NCBI GenBank assembly: GCA_027024625.1
Contig: JALVRY010000282.1
Span: 1 to 13,490 of the forward strand
DNA length: 13,490 nt
Direction: 5' to 3'
Source: Thiotrichaceae bacterium
Lineage (GTDB): Bacteria > Pseudomonadota > Gammaproteobacteria > Thiotrichales > Thiotrichaceae
Positions 2,906 to 13,490 of this stretch are shown piece after piece. Numbering within the stretch: position 1 is the first letter of the stretch; every line of letters begins with the position of its first letter. A program made the position numbers and the translations under genes. The notes beneath the pieces were generated by a model that made no database searches, had not been told where the DNA came from, and saw only the letters and a list, made by a program, of their open reading frames with translations.

Positions 2906-3922
2906 ATGATTATCAATTCACTCTCAAAAGCTCTTTGTTTTAGCCTTTTCATTTTTTTCCAAAGCCCCATCGTACAAGCTTTGGAGACTGATCAATATAT
3001 GATCTGGGGAAAACAGCTAAATGATGTAACAGCCTTTCTCAATGCATTTATCAATAAGCGTACATGGCATGCCATTGATGAAATCAATCACCTCCCAGAT
3101 GAACAGCGTCGTATATTAAGTTGTGAAGATGTGCATAAATACATTCTAAAGAGCTATAACAAAAATAAAGGAATGGATTTTATCTCAGAAATAGAGCGTC
3201 TTGTTTACGACGATCCCAATATTTCACGGTATCCGCCAATTCATACCAGTAAAAAAGCAACAATTAACCAATCTATCTACAAAAAAAGTAAGCTATTTAA
3301 GCTAAAAATGTTTGGCATTAACCTAAAAGTTAATGGAATCTACACAGGGGTAGATAAAACTGACCATGTTTTTCGTACAGGCTACGGCTATTTTAAGACC
3401 TACCTAAAACAAATAAAAAAAGGAAAAACAGAAAAACAGGCTTTAATTGCCGCAATCAAAAAAGGTATCAAACAGGAAAAAACATATTTTGGCTACTGGG
3501 TCTCGGGTGTATTTTCTTATGCTGACTTGGAGGCAAATTATCAGGGCTTGCGCTTCCATAGAAACTTTTGCGAGGGAGATAATCCTTACTTATTTAGACG
3601 CAACAATGGCTCTTGGGGGTTTTCACAATCCATTGAATTAGGCGATTACGTGAACCCTTGGTTTGATGAGTCTTACAATACCAGTGCATACCTAGCTATG
3701 CGTTTTAAAAGCGTTTATCCCGAACTAAAAAAGTATTGTGACAAACAAGGTCTGCAATGGATTCGAGAACGAGATCATTATTACAATAACTGGAAGGGGA
3801 AAGAGAGTTTTTCGGTACGCTATTTACAAAATTTAATAAGCGCTGGAAAGCTGCCTAACCCCAAGAAATATAGCCTTTCCAACATATGTAGCCCTCCTAA
3901 GACATCAGCCTCACTCCATTAG
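2906..3922 (+). CDS. Exported basic protein of unrecognised family
   Basis: I do not recognise a characterised family. The 338-residue product starts with a classic Sec signal peptide (Lys at position 8, hydrophobic core about 10-20, likely cut after VQA at residue 25), so the mature protein should be periplasmic or secreted. The middle is rich in Lys (about residues 110-200) and contains conserved-looking stretches VDKTDHVFRTGYGYFKTY (about 153-170) and TYFGYWVSGVFSYADLEANY (about 193-212). After that come NPWFDESYN and several Cys that could form disulphides (C117 is not among them; visible Cys include those in NFCEG, KYCDK and NICSP). The aromatic-rich, DLEANYQG-containing core looks like a real folded domain and not low-complexity sequence. 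No strong ribosome site precedes the ATG. The gap before it is 100 bases, and it may be its own transcription unit or share one with the following gene. Confidence 0.6.
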   Translation: MIINSLSKALCFSLFIFFQSPIVQALETDQYMIWGKQLNDVTAFLNAFINKRTWHAIDEINHLPDEQRRILSCEDVHKYILKSYNKNKGMDFISEIERLVYDDPNISRYPPIHTSKKATINQSIYKKSKLFKLKMFGINLKVNGIYTGVDKTDHVFRTGYGYFKTYLKQIKKGKTEKQALIAAIKKGIKQEKTYFGYWVSGVFSYADLEANYQGLRFHRNFCEGDNPYLFRRNNGSWGFSQSIELGDYVNPWFDESYNTSAYLAMRFKSVYPELKKYCDKQGLQWIRERDHYYNNWKGKESFSVRYLQNLISAGKLPNPKKYSLSNICSPPKTSASLH

Positions 3923-9788: not shown

Positions 9789-11126
9789 ATGAACTCATTA
9801 CTGATAACCAATGCAAGAATCGTTAATGAAGGTAAAATACATGAAGGGGATGTCTTAATAAAAGATGGTCGTATCGAAAAAATAGCAAATCAAATCTCAG
9901 CAGAATCAAACAACAAAGTCTTTGATGCCAAAGGCAAAACACTCATGCCAGGCATGATTGATGGTCAAGTTCACTTCCGTGAGCCAGGAATGGAACACAA
10001 AGCAACCATTGAGACCGAAAGCAAAGCGGCAGTTGCTGGCGGCATTACCAGCTTTATGGATATGCCAAATACCATCCCCAATACGCTCACTTCAGATATT
10101 CTCGAAGAAAAATATCAACTCGCCTCTGATCGTTCAATTGCAAACTATTCCTTCTATCTTGGTGCATCAAACGACAATATTGATTCTATCAAGTCTTTAG
10201 ATCCTAATGCAGCCTGTGGCATAAAAGTCTTTATGGGGGCATCCACAGGTAACATGCTGGTGGATGACCCAGATACACTAGAGCAAATTTTTAAACATGC
10301 ACCAATACTTGTTGCAACACATTGTGAAGATACGCCACTAATATTAGAAAATGAAGAAAGCTATCGTCAAATCCACGGTGACGATATTCCCTTTGAACTA
10401 CACCCCATTATCCGTAGCGAAGAGGCTTGCTATAAATCCTCATCTTTTGCCGTTGAATTGGCAAAGAAACATGACACAAAATTACATGTGTTACACATCT
10501 CAACAGCAAAAGAAGTTGAATTATTTTCCAGTGCCGAGTTAAAAGACAAACAAATCAGTGCTGAAGCCTGTGCTCATTTCCTCGTGTTTTCTGATGAGGA
10601 TTATGCTGAAAAAGGCTCTCTAATCAAATGTAACCCCGCCATTAAAACAGCTGAAGATCGTGCAGGAATTATCCAAGGTTTAATGGAAGGACGAATTGAC
10701 ACAATTGCAACTGATCACGCTCCTCATACATGGGAAGAAAAACAAAATAGTTATTTCAAAGCTCCCTCTGGTTTACCCTTAGTTCAATATGCCTTACCCT
10801 CAATACTTGAAAACTACCACGATGGAATCTTTACACTTGAATTTATCGTAGAAAAGACAAGTCACGCTGTTGCTGAGCGTTTTCAAATTAAAGATAGAGG
10901 CTATATTAGGGAAGGCTATTGGGCTGATCTCGCACTTATAGACCTTGATAAACCCTTATTAGCAAGACATCGTGATGTTTTATCAAAATGCAAATGGACG
11001 CCGTTTGATGGCTACCAATTCCGCTCATCAATCGCAGCAACGTGGGTTAACGGAAATCTAGCTTGGAGCGACGGTGAAATTCAAGAAATTGACTTTGGTA
11101 AGCGATTAGAATTTGATAGAGCTTAA
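9789..11126 (+). CDS. pyrC: Dihydroorotase, class I-type amidohydrolase
   Basis: This 445-residue cyclic amidohydrolase is predicted to convert carbamoyl-aspartate to dihydroorotate in pyrimidine synthesis. It is the long class I-like form, not the roughly 350-residue E. coli PyrC. An N-terminal beta strand domain (1-55) precedes the metal motif DGQVHFREPG (58-67). Further sites are CGIKVFMG with the probable carbamylated K146, ATHCED with H178, LHVLHIST with H236, and IATDHAPHTWEEK with D309. The motif normally reads D-x-H-x-H, but here the first His is Q60; as I recall, a DHOase subfamily shares this. Substrate recognition residues R64 and N94 (MPNT) are present. AAAGGA lies about 8-13 bases before the ATG. 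The gap after folA is 88 bases, so cotranscription is likely but not certain. Hydantoinase or allantoinase are less likely alternatives. Confidence 0.88.
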   Translation: MNSLLITNARIVNEGKIHEGDVLIKDGRIEKIANQISAESNNKVFDAKGKTLMPGMIDGQVHFREPGMEHKATIETESKAAVAGGITSFMDMPNTIPNTLTSDILEEKYQLASDRSIANYSFYLGASNDNIDSIKSLDPNAACGIKVFMGASTGNMLVDDPDTLEQIFKHAPILVATHCEDTPLILENEESYRQIHGDDIPFELHPIIRSEEACYKSSSFAVELAKKHDTKLHVLHISTAKEVELFSSAELKDKQISAEACAHFLVFSDEDYAEKGSLIKCNPAIKTAEDRAGIIQGLMEGRIDTIATDHAPHTWEEKQNSYFKAPSGLPLVQYALPSILENYHDGIFTLEFIVEKTSHAVAERFQIKDRGYIREGYWADLALIDLDKPLLARHRDVLSKCKWTPFDGYQFRSSIAATWVNGNLAWSDGEIQEIDFGKRLEFDRA

Positions 11127-11146
11127 TAAGTTACTACGTTCTCAAC

Positions 11147-11316
11147 AAAAAAGAACCCTCCGCAAGGGAGGGTAAACTTTAGGGTATGTAGAGCTTAGCT
11201 CAGCATCATCGTAAAACAACATCGAGCTAAAAGGTCTATCAAAGGAGGAGGATGTAAAACTTGATAGACCTTAAGTACAGCCAACATGTCCTGTACTTGG
11301 AATGTATCTTAGTCTT
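11147..11316 (-). ncRNA. Candidate FNR-activated small RNA with anti-Shine-Dalgarno loop (novel)
   Basis: Read on the - strand from about 11316 to 11147 (roughly 170 nt), this non-coding gap folds into a compact chain. SL1 pairs 11291-11298 with 11273-11280 (8 bp). SL2 pairs 11261-11272 with 11231-11242 (perfect 12 bp). SL3 pairs 11224-11230 with 11195-11201 (7 bp). The three abut with no spacer. A final stem ACCCTCC/GGAGGGT (11173-11167 with 11161-11155) is followed by TCTTTTTT, a terminator only in this orientation. The SL2 loop holds CATCCTCCTCC, complementary to ribosome binding sites, as in many trans-acting sRNAs. An FNR-like box sits about 42 bases before the assumed start. No family was recognised. 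A 30-codon frame (11287-11195) lies inside it but lacks a properly spaced ribosome site. Confidence 0.55.
11155..11173 (-). terminator. Terminator of the candidate sRNA
   Basis: A 7-bp GC-rich stem (ACCCTCC at 11155-11161, GGAGGGT at 11167-11173) with a 5-base loop. On the - strand it is followed by TC and six T (11152-11147). On the + strand the stem is followed by AAACTTT, so it is poor as a terminator for pyrC, although the hairpin could still protect the 3' end of pyrC mRNA. Confidence 0.65.
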
Positions 11317-11322
11317 ATTAGT

Positions 11323-11365
11323 ATATTATTCAATAGCGGTATACTTATTTGTTGACGTAGGTCAC
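11323..11365 (-). promoter_or_regulatory. Putative FNR-dependent promoter for the - strand sRNA
   Basis: On the - strand, GTGAC-CTAC-GTCAA (11365-11352) matches the FNR box at 7 of 10 positions. It is followed by a TAATAT hexamer (11328-11323) as -10. With a start near 11316 the box is centred at about -42.5, close to the -41.5 typical of class II FNR promoters. The -35 hexamer at normal spacing (CAAATA) is poor, as is usual for activator-dependent promoters. An alternative pair is TTGAAT (11333-11328) and TAAGAT (11311-11306) with a 16-base spacer, giving a start near 11299. Confidence 0.45.
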
Positions 11366-11412
11366 ATCTCTACTCCCTTTCTTATTAACGACTTCACTTA
11401 TAGGATGCATTA

Positions 11413-11426
11413 TTGACAAAAGTCAA
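11413..11426 (+). promoter_or_regulatory. Palindromic FNR-like box upstream of hemN
   Basis: TTGACAAAAGTCAA is a perfect palindrome with half-sites TTGAC/GTCAA. It agrees with the TTGAY-N4-RTCAA form of FNR-family boxes (8 of 10 to the strict E. coli consensus). It lies 76 bases before the hemN ATG. hemN is a classic FNR/Anr target in other gammaproteobacteria. I could not fix a convincing -10 at the ideal distance, so activation at hemN is inferred. It is also 61 bases from the companion box at 11352-11365. Confidence 0.6.
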
Positions 11427-11501
11427 AGCCCATCTATGTGAATTGTCGCCCTGCTTTGTTAGATTACAGTTTCTATTTTAGCTTCTAGGTCTGAACCAAT
11501 A

Positions 11502-12893
11502 ATGCCAGAAAAAATACAATTCAATGCGGAAATGATTAAGCGATATGACACATCAGGTCCACGTTATACCTCGTATCCTACAGCAATAGCATTTACCGAG
11601 AAATTTACGGAGGATGACTACATTCAGCATGCTAAAAATAGTAATGATGACCTTATCCCATCTCCTTTATCACTCTATTTTCACATCCCATTTTGTGACA
11701 CCGTTTGTTTTTACTGTGCCTGCAATAAAATCGTCACAAAAGACTATTCTAAAGCTGATGTCTACCTCAAGTATTTATACAAAGAAATTGAAATGCAGGC
11801 AGCTTTATATGATCGAGATAGACGCGTCGAGCAACTCCATTTTGGTGGTGGCACACCTACTTTTTTAAGCGACGCACAAATTGAAGGTTTAATGGAGAAA
11901 ATCCGTAGACACTTTAATCTTTACCTCACAGATGATGGTGATTACTCGATAGAAATTGACCCACGTTCAGTCAATGCAAAAACAATTTCCGTATTACGCG
12001 ATGTCGGTTTCAACCGTTTCAGTTTAGGGGTTCAAGATGTTAATGATAAGGTGCAAAAAGCCGTAAACCGCATCCAACCAATTGAAGAAACAAAAGCGAT
12101 TATTGATGCCTGCCGTGATAACGATGCAAGATCAATCAGCATAGACCTAATATATGGCTTACCTTTCCAAACAGTAGAAAGTTTTAACCAAACCTTAGAT
12201 GAGATAATTAAACTTTCTCCTGACCGTATCTCTGTTTTCAACTACGCTCATTTACCCAATCGATTTAAGCCACAGCGAAGAATTAATGCAGAGGATCTAC
12301 CCACATCTGAAGAAAAATTAGAAATATTACAACTTTCGGTCGAAAAGCTCATTGATCATGGCTATGTCTACATTGGTATGGATCACTTTGCTAAACCTGA
12401 TGATGAGCTAGCACTCGCTCAAGAAAATGGAAAACTACACCGTAACTTTCAGGGCTATACAACACATTCAGATTGCGACTTAATAGCAATGGGTGTTAGC
12501 TCAATCAGCAGTGTAGCGGGATGTTACAGTCAAAACACAAAAAACAGCGATGATTATTATAAAGCCATTTCGGCAGGACACTTCCCCGTTGTAAAAGGCC
12601 TAACATTGGATGATGATGATTTAATCCGTCGCCGTATTATCCAACAGCTCGCCTGCCACTTTTCTCTAGATTTTGAAGTTTTTGAAACCAGCTACGGTTT
12701 TAAATTTACTGATGTCTTTGCAAGAGAGCTTGAAATGCTTCAACCAATGGTTGCAGATAAATTATTAGCCATTGATGATGATAGAATCCAAGTCTCTAGC
12801 TCAGGTCGTTTCTTGATTAGAAATATTTGTATGGTATTTGATGTAGGATTAAGAAAGAAGGATGTAAAAGAGCGTTTCTCTAAAGTGATTTAA
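11502..12893 (+). CDS. hemN: Oxygen-independent coproporphyrinogen III dehydrogenase
   Basis: A radical-SAM enzyme of 463 residues that decarboxylates two propionates of coproporphyrinogen III to make protoporphyrinogen IX without oxygen. The HemN-specific N-terminus RYDTSGPRYTSYPTA (14-28) separates it from the haem chaperone HemW. The cluster motif is CDTVCFYC with C65, C69 and C72, followed by C74 as in E. coli HemN. GGGTPTF (about 114-120) is the SAM-binding glycine motif. The C-terminal HemN domain is present, and the length is near that of the E. coli enzyme (457). The ATG at 11502 is taken because the conserved N-terminus begins right after it; only a weak AGG precedes it. FNR-like boxes upstream and fnr nearby fit low-oxygen induction. 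It ends at a very strong hairpin. Confidence 0.97.
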   Translation: MPEKIQFNAEMIKRYDTSGPRYTSYPTAIAFTEKFTEDDYIQHAKNSNDDLIPSPLSLYFHIPFCDTVCFYCACNKIVTKDYSKADVYLKYLYKEIEMQAALYDRDRRVEQLHFGGGTPTFLSDAQIEGLMEKIRRHFNLYLTDDGDYSIEIDPRSVNAKTISVLRDVGFNRFSLGVQDVNDKVQKAVNRIQPIEETKAIIDACRDNDARSISIDLIYGLPFQTVESFNQTLDEIIKLSPDRISVFNYAHLPNRFKPQRRINAEDLPTSEEKLEILQLSVEKLIDHGYVYIGMDHFAKPDDELALAQENGKLHRNFQGYTTHSDCDLIAMGVSSISSVAGCYSQNTKNSDDYYKAISAGHFPVVKGLTLDDDDLIRRRIIQQLACHFSLDFEVFETSYGFKFTDVFARELEMLQPMVADKLLAIDDDRIQVSSSGRFLIRNICMVFDVGLRKKDVKERFSKVI

Positions 12894-12972: not shown

Positions 12973-13490
12973 CTATTTATTATCCCTGCATGAACTATGT
13001 GCAAGGTTACGCAGCATATCCAAATCCAACACCTTAATCGAACGTCGGTTCACCTCAATAATCTTATTTTCCTGTAAGCGTGAAAAAATACGGCTGAGCG
13101 TCTCTACTGCCATACCAAGGTAATTTGCCAGATCACGACGCGGCATAGATAACAGAAAATCAGTCCCAGAAAATTGTCTCGCGGTATTACGTTGAGAAAT
13201 ACTTAGTAGAAACGTAGCCAAACGCTCCTCTGTTTGCATCTGTCCTAGCGTCAACATCGCAATATGATCATGTTGAATTTCTTTACCCACCTGATGCATC
13301 ATCTCATGACGCATTGCTGGAAGCGTCTCACACAGTGAATTAAAGTTTTCCATATTAAGCTCACAAACGAAAGTATCGTCCAGAGCTTGAGCAGAGCAAC
13401 TATGCTTATTCGTATAAAAAGCATCAAAGCCAACAAGATCACCCGGCAAGTGAAAACCTAAAATCTGTTCTTCACCCGAAGCATTGGAAA
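12973..13490 (-). CDS. fnr: FNR-family oxygen-responsive transcriptional regulator, N-terminus cut by the window edge
   Basis: Only the C-terminal 172 or so codons are visible; the frame runs off the right edge, so the apparent initiator at 13449 is an internal Leu codon. The sequence aligns with E. coli FNR: GEEQILGFHLPGDLVGFDAF, then ALDDTFVCEL, whose Cys corresponds to the cluster ligand C122. The dimerisation helix follows, and then the HTH with RRDLANYLGMAVETLSR, keeping the E-x-x-S-R recognition pattern that reads TTGAT half-sites. The three N-terminal cluster cysteines are outside the window. FNR binds DNA as a dimer when its [4Fe-4S] cluster is intact under low oxygen. It converges on hemN, a likely target, and FNR-like boxes occur elsewhere in the window. 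A stand-alone CRP-type protein is excluded by the cluster Cys and helix. Confidence 0.93.
   Translation of the reverse strand, partial: SNASGEEQILGFHLPGDLVGFDAFYTNKHSCSAQALDDTFVCELNMENFNSLCETLPAMRHEMMHQVGKEIQHDHIAMLTLGQMQTEERLATFLLSISQRNTARQFSGTDFLLSMPRRDLANYLGMAVETLSRIFSRLQENKIIEVNRRSIKVLDLDMLRNLAHSSCRDNK

Follow-up and report, generated by a model that had tools for sequence, protein, structure and literature searches.

Gene arrangement and RNA features of the locus

The whole stretch of DNA analysed here (13,490 nucleotides, hereafter the window) is contig C282 of a Thiotrichaceae metagenome-assembled genome, the assembly of which comprises 2.61 Mb in 490 contigs and is 83% complete. The hemN gene for the oxygen-independent coproporphyrinogen III oxidase is located on the plus strand (11502–12893) and was identified with NCBIfam TIGR00538 (608.6 bits; cut-off 324.95). 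HemN of the window shares 88% identity with its counterpart in 'Thiotrichaceae bacterium' JALWYT010000125 and 72% with that of Thiothrix lacustris. An fnr-like gene lies beyond hemN on the minus strand (12973–13490), and its 5' end is cut off by the end of the contig and the window. The best NCBIfam match of its product is Fnr (PRK11161, positions 84–245 of 250, E 9.5e-48), in agreement with the initial annotation, which had placed fnr near this locus. Because the start of the gene is missing, the product lacks its N-terminus and scores 162.6 bits, below the cut-off of 228. The genome of the window also encodes Hfq (PF17209, 100.9 bits; cut-off 27). Two ORFs elsewhere in the window, at 144–1034 (296 aa) and 2906–3922 (338 aa), matched nothing in Pfam or NCBIfam at E 0.001.

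The gap between the stop codon of pyrC (11126) and the start codon of hemN (11502) had been described as gene-free, and indeed no ORF of at least 80 aa is found at 11127–11501. The candidate sRNA locus occupies the minus strand at approximately 11299–11147 (about 150 nt) and is divergent to hemN. Three hairpins are arranged back to back (11298–11195), and after them come a linker and a T-tailed terminator. Hairpin 1 (11273–11298, minus strand) folds with 8 bp and has the loop GACATGTTGG. Hairpin 2 (11231–11272, minus strand) folds with 13 bp and holds the anti-Shine-Dalgarno sequence TTTTACATCCTCCTCC in its loop, which is kept in the related genome G001. Hairpin 3 (11195–11230, minus strand) folds with 8 bp and an inner helix of 7 bp. 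The three abutting stems claimed in the initial annotation are present, with a second stem of 13 bp in place of 12 bp. The linker (11174–11194, minus strand; GCTCTACATACCCTAAAGTTT) is mostly unpaired. The intrinsic terminator (11147–11173, minus strand) consists of the stem ACCCTCC/GGAGGGT (11173–11155), after which comes TCTTTTTT. Two terminator-like sites were detected at 11000–11600, compared with 0.4 expected from shuffled sequences; both are on the minus strand, to which the terminator with its T-run had been assigned.

The fold energy of the minus strand is −52.0 kcal/mol, compared with −34.3 kcal/mol (sd 3.6) for dinucleotide shuffles, and none of the 200 shuffles equals it (z −4.94). 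The plus strand has a good fold too (z −3.99, equalled by 1 of 200 shuffles), which is to be expected of inverted repeats.

Homologues and their distribution

Homologues of the candidate sRNA adjoin hemN in all 16 Thiothrix genomes examined and in two of the three genomes of the window's genus, including the window itself. The hemN genes of Thiothrix were identified through a short N-terminal motif, and their start codons are located upstream on the other strand in 16/16 genomes. The Thiothrix RNA has approximately 100–115 nt, compared with about 150 nt in the window. Upstream of hemN in G001, we observed the layout of the window: a first hairpin, a second hairpin with the loop TTTTTACATCCTCCTCCTCC, a longer third hairpin, AACATACCCTAAA and a terminator. 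G002, which also belongs to the window's genus, has no sRNA beside hemN.

A covariance model (R1) was built from 15 Thiothrix copies, and the window and G001 were not included. In 63 genomes of the family, which were the same as those used for the gene-order search, R1 found all 16 Thiothrix copies (E 4.1e-28 or better; the E-values are rough) and recovered both the window locus (33.7 bits, E 7.8e-7), which it had not seen, and the G001 locus (29.7 bits). At E ≤ 1, the search gave these 18 true loci and a further 31 weak matches, the best of which scores 26.9 bits (G061), and no match in G002. Eight of the 31 weak matches were inspected and rejected; none of them contains the linker core in exact form, and on visual inspection they resemble coding sequence or terminators on their own. 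All of the remaining 23 have E ≥ 0.086. The six further genera of the family yielded no credible copy at E ≤ 1, with eight of the 31 weak matches inspected. A class-wide sample of 369 genomes, searched at E ≤ 0.001 under strict filters with ten candidates scored per genome, yielded three matches beyond that in the window, at 26.5, 25.0, and 23.3 bits. One of them is a terminator, all three are without the exact linker core, and they were rejected. Judging from these false matches, the noise of the model reaches about 27 bits, and the loci of the window and G001 exceed this level and are syntenic.

Simpler searches gave a similar distribution. A pattern combining the linker and the T-run matched 16 of the 63 family genomes, namely the window and 15/16 Thiothrix genomes, and missed G001. 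A DNA similarity search in 57 relatives (E ≤ 1) detected the true locus in G001 and the linker, or the linker with the terminator, in six Thiothrix genomes. The other matches of this search were short and weak (five inspected).

Conserved secondary structure

The main stem of the Thiothrix RNA has 12 bp, and 98.3% of its cells are paired in the alignment of 15 sequences. When the partner was slid by 1–3 columns as a control, only 24–55% were paired. Both sides have changed in 7/12 pairs, a number that is reached in 1 of 500 shuffles; across the two measures, 0–1 of 500 shuffles score as high. An alignment-based consensus fold gives odd pairings in parts of the linker and of the terminator, and the covariation counts of the main stem agree with those given here. 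Between the window and G001, five of the eight pairs of hairpin 1 are compensated with pairing kept. Compensatory changes in the stems of relatives, which the initial annotation had proposed to look for, were thus found in both comparisons, and by covariation the predicted RNA secondary structure is conserved in Thiothrix and in the window and G001.

The best-conserved parts of the Thiothrix RNA are the loop and the linker. The loop has a mean conservation of 0.99 with 16/18 invariant columns, and it is C-rich and contains TTACCTCC in 16/16 genomes. In the linker, 24/25 columns are invariant among the 16 Thiothrix genomes, and the core ACATACCCTAAA is common to the window, G001, and all 16 Thiothrix genomes.

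FNR-like boxes and promoter elements

The initial annotation had placed an FNR-like box and a −10-like hexamer upstream of the hairpins. The sRNA-proximal box is present on the minus strand (11352–11365, GTGACCTACGTCAA) and agrees with the consensus at 7/10 positions; 120 of the window's 13477 places reach this score. On its own, the window box is no better than chance, and it is relatives that lend it support. The −10 element is weak, and a consensus scan of 11000–11600 found no sigma-70 promoter. One candidate −10 on the minus strand is TAAGAT (11306–11311), with TTGAAT (11333–11328) sixteen bases upstream and the FNR site at −59.5; the rival −10, TAATAT (11328–11323, minus strand), would place the FNR site at −42.5. 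The counterpart box in G001, ATGATCTACGTCAA, agrees at 8/10 positions and lies 32 nt ahead of the shared TTGAAT, which is the same offset as in the window. The candidate −10 elements of G001 put its box at −42.5 or −62.5.

In Thiothrix, a box of the type TTGAYNNGYATCAA, agreeing with the consensus at 9 or 10 of 10 positions, is found in 16/16 genomes and starts exactly 56 nt ahead of a −10 element, T(G/T/C)TAAT, in all of them. The centre of the box is thus at −61.5, taking the −10 element as beginning at −12. A TTGTAA-like −35 element is located seventeen bases ahead of the −10 element and is exact in 13/16 genomes. The conservation of the box (0.91), the −35 (0.96), and the −10 (0.94) is higher than that of the surrounding stretches (0.72–0.77), and the promoter and terminator share the strand of the hairpin.

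These elements have to be weighed against the explanation that the sRNA is real but lies outside FNR control, the box acting on hemN alone and the RNA being constitutive or otherwise controlled. hemN is a usual target of FNR-type regulators. A second FNR-like box in the window, which is palindromic and nearer to hemN (11413–11426, plus strand; TTGACTTTTGTCAA, 8/10), is probably hemN's own, and a perfect box (TTGATATTTATCAA) is found at a like position in G001. G002 retains a perfect box before hemN (TTGATCTTTATCAA) in the absence of the sRNA, and hemN therefore seems to be under its own FNR control. The weak sRNA-proximal box of the window (7/10) is also consistent with this explanation. In Thiothrix, a search of the 460 bases ahead of the linker gave only one box with at least 8/10 positions, and this single box may therefore serve both the sRNA and hemN. 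However, the spacing of exactly 56 nt is kept to the −10 element of the sRNA in these 16 related genomes, whereas the box lies at a slightly variable distance of 92–96 nt from the hemN start. In addition, the window and G001 keep the sRNA-proximal box despite the better second box nearer to hemN. We consider control of hemN alone to be unlikely.

Predicted pairing of the loop with mRNA leaders

Candidate targets of the loop were ranked in a sample of 60 stretches (1.19 of 3.69 Mb) of the Thiothrix genome G082, which were chosen by position only; the ORFs and their starts were called by a simple script, giving 988 ORF starts. The leader of sodB ranks second among the 988 ORF starts, with a predicted duplex of GAGGAG-UAACGA and UCGUUACCUCCUC at −22.8 kcal/mol, and it was first among the initial 336 ORFs. 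The best NCBIfam match of this gene is Fe superoxide dismutase, with 301 bits under a cut-off of 348. The first-ranked partner is another ORF with a G-rich leader. When the flanks of the loop were shuffled with the CCUCCUC core fixed, 0.7% of 400 loops paired as well with sodB. This test does not single out sodB because four other ORFs among the top 40 also have a fraction of 0.010 or less.

The sodB site was examined in those genomes in which a SodB had been detected. In 15/16 Thiothrix genomes, the sodB site pairs with the loop of the same genome at −16.2 kcal/mol or better, although these 15 pairings are not independent because the genomes share descent. In 12/16, the site ranks among the top 2.1% of the 336-ORF background, taken from G082 for all genomes. 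It is this conservation, and not the flank test, that marks out sodB as a predicted target. G010 shows matched changes, with C to U in the loop and G to A in the sodB leader; its neighbour G027 has the leader change alone and poorer pairing (9.5%). The sodB leader of G033 does not pair with the loop (79% of the background is as good). In G001, the leader shows no pairing with the loop (80% of the background) and weak pairing with the linker (15%). No SodB was detected at E ≤ 1e-20 in the genome of the window or G002. By predicted pairing, sodB is the best-supported candidate target in Thiothrix only, where the pairing fits the repression of aerobic functions.

The complement of the loop ahead of a start codon (GGAGGTAACN{0,9}ATG) occurs at 51 places in 15/16 Thiothrix genomes, compared with 34 for the reversed control. 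One of the 51 is the complement of the sRNA itself (G079) and one is a double count (G010). Among 30 inspected places, the recurrent ones are an rpmG-like ribosome-binding site (11 genomes), a cydA-like gene (5), and a PPIase-like gene (4); these names are our presumption from the translations. The rpmG-like sites were translated at six loci and otherwise assigned by the identical matched string, and they appear to be an ordinary conserved ribosome-binding site and were set aside.

A search for cydA in 19 genomes gave matches in 17 of them at 23 places, of which 20 were scored. Pairing with the loop is at 0.3–29% of the background in 19/20 scored copies and at 86% in G033. The cydA leader in the genome of the window, GAGGAGGAT, has nine bases complementary to the loop (5.4% of the background). 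We regard cydA as a weak candidate because any strong Shine-Dalgarno sequence pairs with such a loop. At 13 gene starts of the window, including those of hemN and petABC, pairing was not outstanding. Two or three cydA-like genes with differing leaders were seen in the Thiothrix genomes G021 (L266, L276, and L281), G075, G080, and G003.

The invariant linker

The complement of the linker, TTAGGGTATGT, is found at 25 places in the 16 Thiothrix genomes, and 16 of these are the complement of the sRNA itself. A few of the remaining nine are shared by two or three close relatives. Outside the sRNA locus, no site with the 11-nt complement of the linker core is conserved throughout the genus in these 16 genomes. 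In G082, a leader in the L203:3042 region (GAGGGGTATG) pairs with the linker at −21.2 kcal/mol, second of the 336 ORFs; from the look of its translation, we take the gene to be SecB-like.

An RNA with such a linker may act mainly as a sponge, in which the linker titrates a protein and pairing with mRNAs is secondary. The near-complete invariance of the linker in 16 species in spite of the lack of a genus-wide 11-nt complement would be consistent with this, as would the extra hairpins in the window and G001. However, the complement search used an exact 11-nt pattern, whereas real seeds often have 6–8 nt, and the gene-specific match of the loop to sodB points to a role in pairing. Known sponges repeat their site, whereas each of these RNAs has one copy of the linker. 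We consider protein titration as the main function unlikely.

Proposed mode of action

The reading that we favour, and consider fairly probable on the evidence of the sequences, is a free-standing, trans-acting sRNA that would be activated by FNR at low oxygen and whose loop would block the translation of mRNAs for aerobic functions. At low oxygen, active FNR would bind to the upstream box and switch on the RNA divergently from hemN. The RNA would take the form of a C-rich loop on a stable stem, a mostly unpaired invariant linker, and a Rho-independent terminator. The loop would cover Shine-Dalgarno regions, and gene-specific flanks would add pairing so that translation is blocked. Hfq probably assists in this process. 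The predicted structure and its conservation, the covariation, the promoter (in Thiothrix), the terminator architecture, and the complementarity are each supported by sequence. The interpretation as an FNR-controlled sRNA, put forward in the initial annotation, has passed most of the sequence tests able to refute it and is to that extent supported.

Hairpins with a terminator can also make an attenuator, and the RNA might be the leader of a downstream gene. This is improbable, since pyrC, the next gene beyond the terminator in the window, runs convergently on the opposite strand, and the conserved neighbour hemN sits on the other side. Moreover, the invariant linker parts the stem from the terminator, and in the 15 Thiothrix copies, of 16, that were folded, the two form together and not as alternatives. 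A small protein is more improbable still. An ATG is located within the Thiothrix loop and a 30-codon frame begins at hairpin 1 of the window, but among the 16 Thiothrix genomes the frame from the loop ATG is anywhere from 6 to 70 codons long and does not keep to a single reading frame, the corresponding frame of G001 stops after 9 codons, and the stems carry compensatory changes instead. Chance hairpins without function, a reading to which the weak box and promoter of the window taken alone might lead, are hardly credible given the conservation and covariation across 18 genomes.

Comparison with known sRNAs

The initial annotation had recognized no likeness to a known sRNA, and this was borne out by Rfam: cmscan with the whole library, which presumably includes FnrS, detected no family at the gathering threshold or even at E ≤ 1 in 11120–11505 or in L117, L123, and L003. 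FNR-activated sRNAs occur in a few lineages and have unrelated sequences. They include AniS of Neisseria, and PhrS and other Anr-dependent sRNAs of Pseudomonas show low-oxygen induction by an FNR-type regulator, although their reported role differs. The comparison with AniS and PhrS consists of the Rfam scans, in which the present RNA matches no family. Exposed CCUCC loops, which are expected to pair with ribosome-binding sites, are known from sRNAs with CUCC-rich loops (the sibling sRNAs of Neisseria and the 'cuckoo' RNAs of alphaproteobacteria). The present RNA differs from them in its putative control by an FNR box, its location, and the absence of an Rfam match.

The closest likeness in working is to FnrS of enterobacteria, which is a stand-alone sRNA activated by FNR, as is proposed here. 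FnrS is reported to target sodB (PMC8595263 and PMC10993149). The FNR site of E. coli fnrS is centred at −42.5, as stated in a passage of PMC3688515, and this position is one of the two options for the window RNA. The same source gives approximately −41.5 as the usual position of an activating FNR site and describes very few promoters with a site at or beyond −61.5; the Thiothrix site at −61.5 has a placement that this passage calls rare and differs in this respect from fnrS. In contrast to FnrS, the present RNA gives no match to the FnrS covariance model at E ≤ 1 and thus falls outside that family, and it is located beside hemN, its C-rich loop is of the anti-Shine-Dalgarno type, and its linker is invariant. 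It would thus appear to be a new sRNA family inside the known FNR-activated class, with a mode of working like that of FnrS but distinct from FnrS itself. Full-text searches found no sRNA study of Thiothrix by title (subscription journals are mostly outside their scope) and nothing relevant on FNR-dependent sRNAs among the matches listed.

We also considered, as a possible but doubtful extension, that the RNA is a convergent counterpart of FnrS, in which an unrelated RNA under a class I FNR promoter reaches the same target, sodB, and the linker (core ACAUACCCUAAA) is a second functional site. The linker, which is invariant and lacks a conserved long complement in mRNAs, would then serve either to bind a protein or to pair through many short seeds. 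The favoured reading, an FNR-activated sRNA with an anti-Shine-Dalgarno loop, would add an independent family in filamentous sulfur oxidizers. With sodB once more as a predicted target, such a family would suggest that regulation upon oxygen loss has recruited sRNAs to one and the same mRNA more than once. The analysis also provides a covariance model and, in Thiothrix, pairs of sites open to testing.

The RNAs of the window's genus have three hairpins, and those of Thiothrix have one. By eye, CGATGTTGTTTTAC of hairpin 3 in the window is similar to CGATGTTTGTTAC of the Thiothrix loop. The sequence GTTTTAC is found in the loop region of both hairpins 2 and 3 (11195–11272), and each of these two hairpins resembles a portion of the one loop of the Thiothrix RNA, as though a hairpin had undergone duplication.
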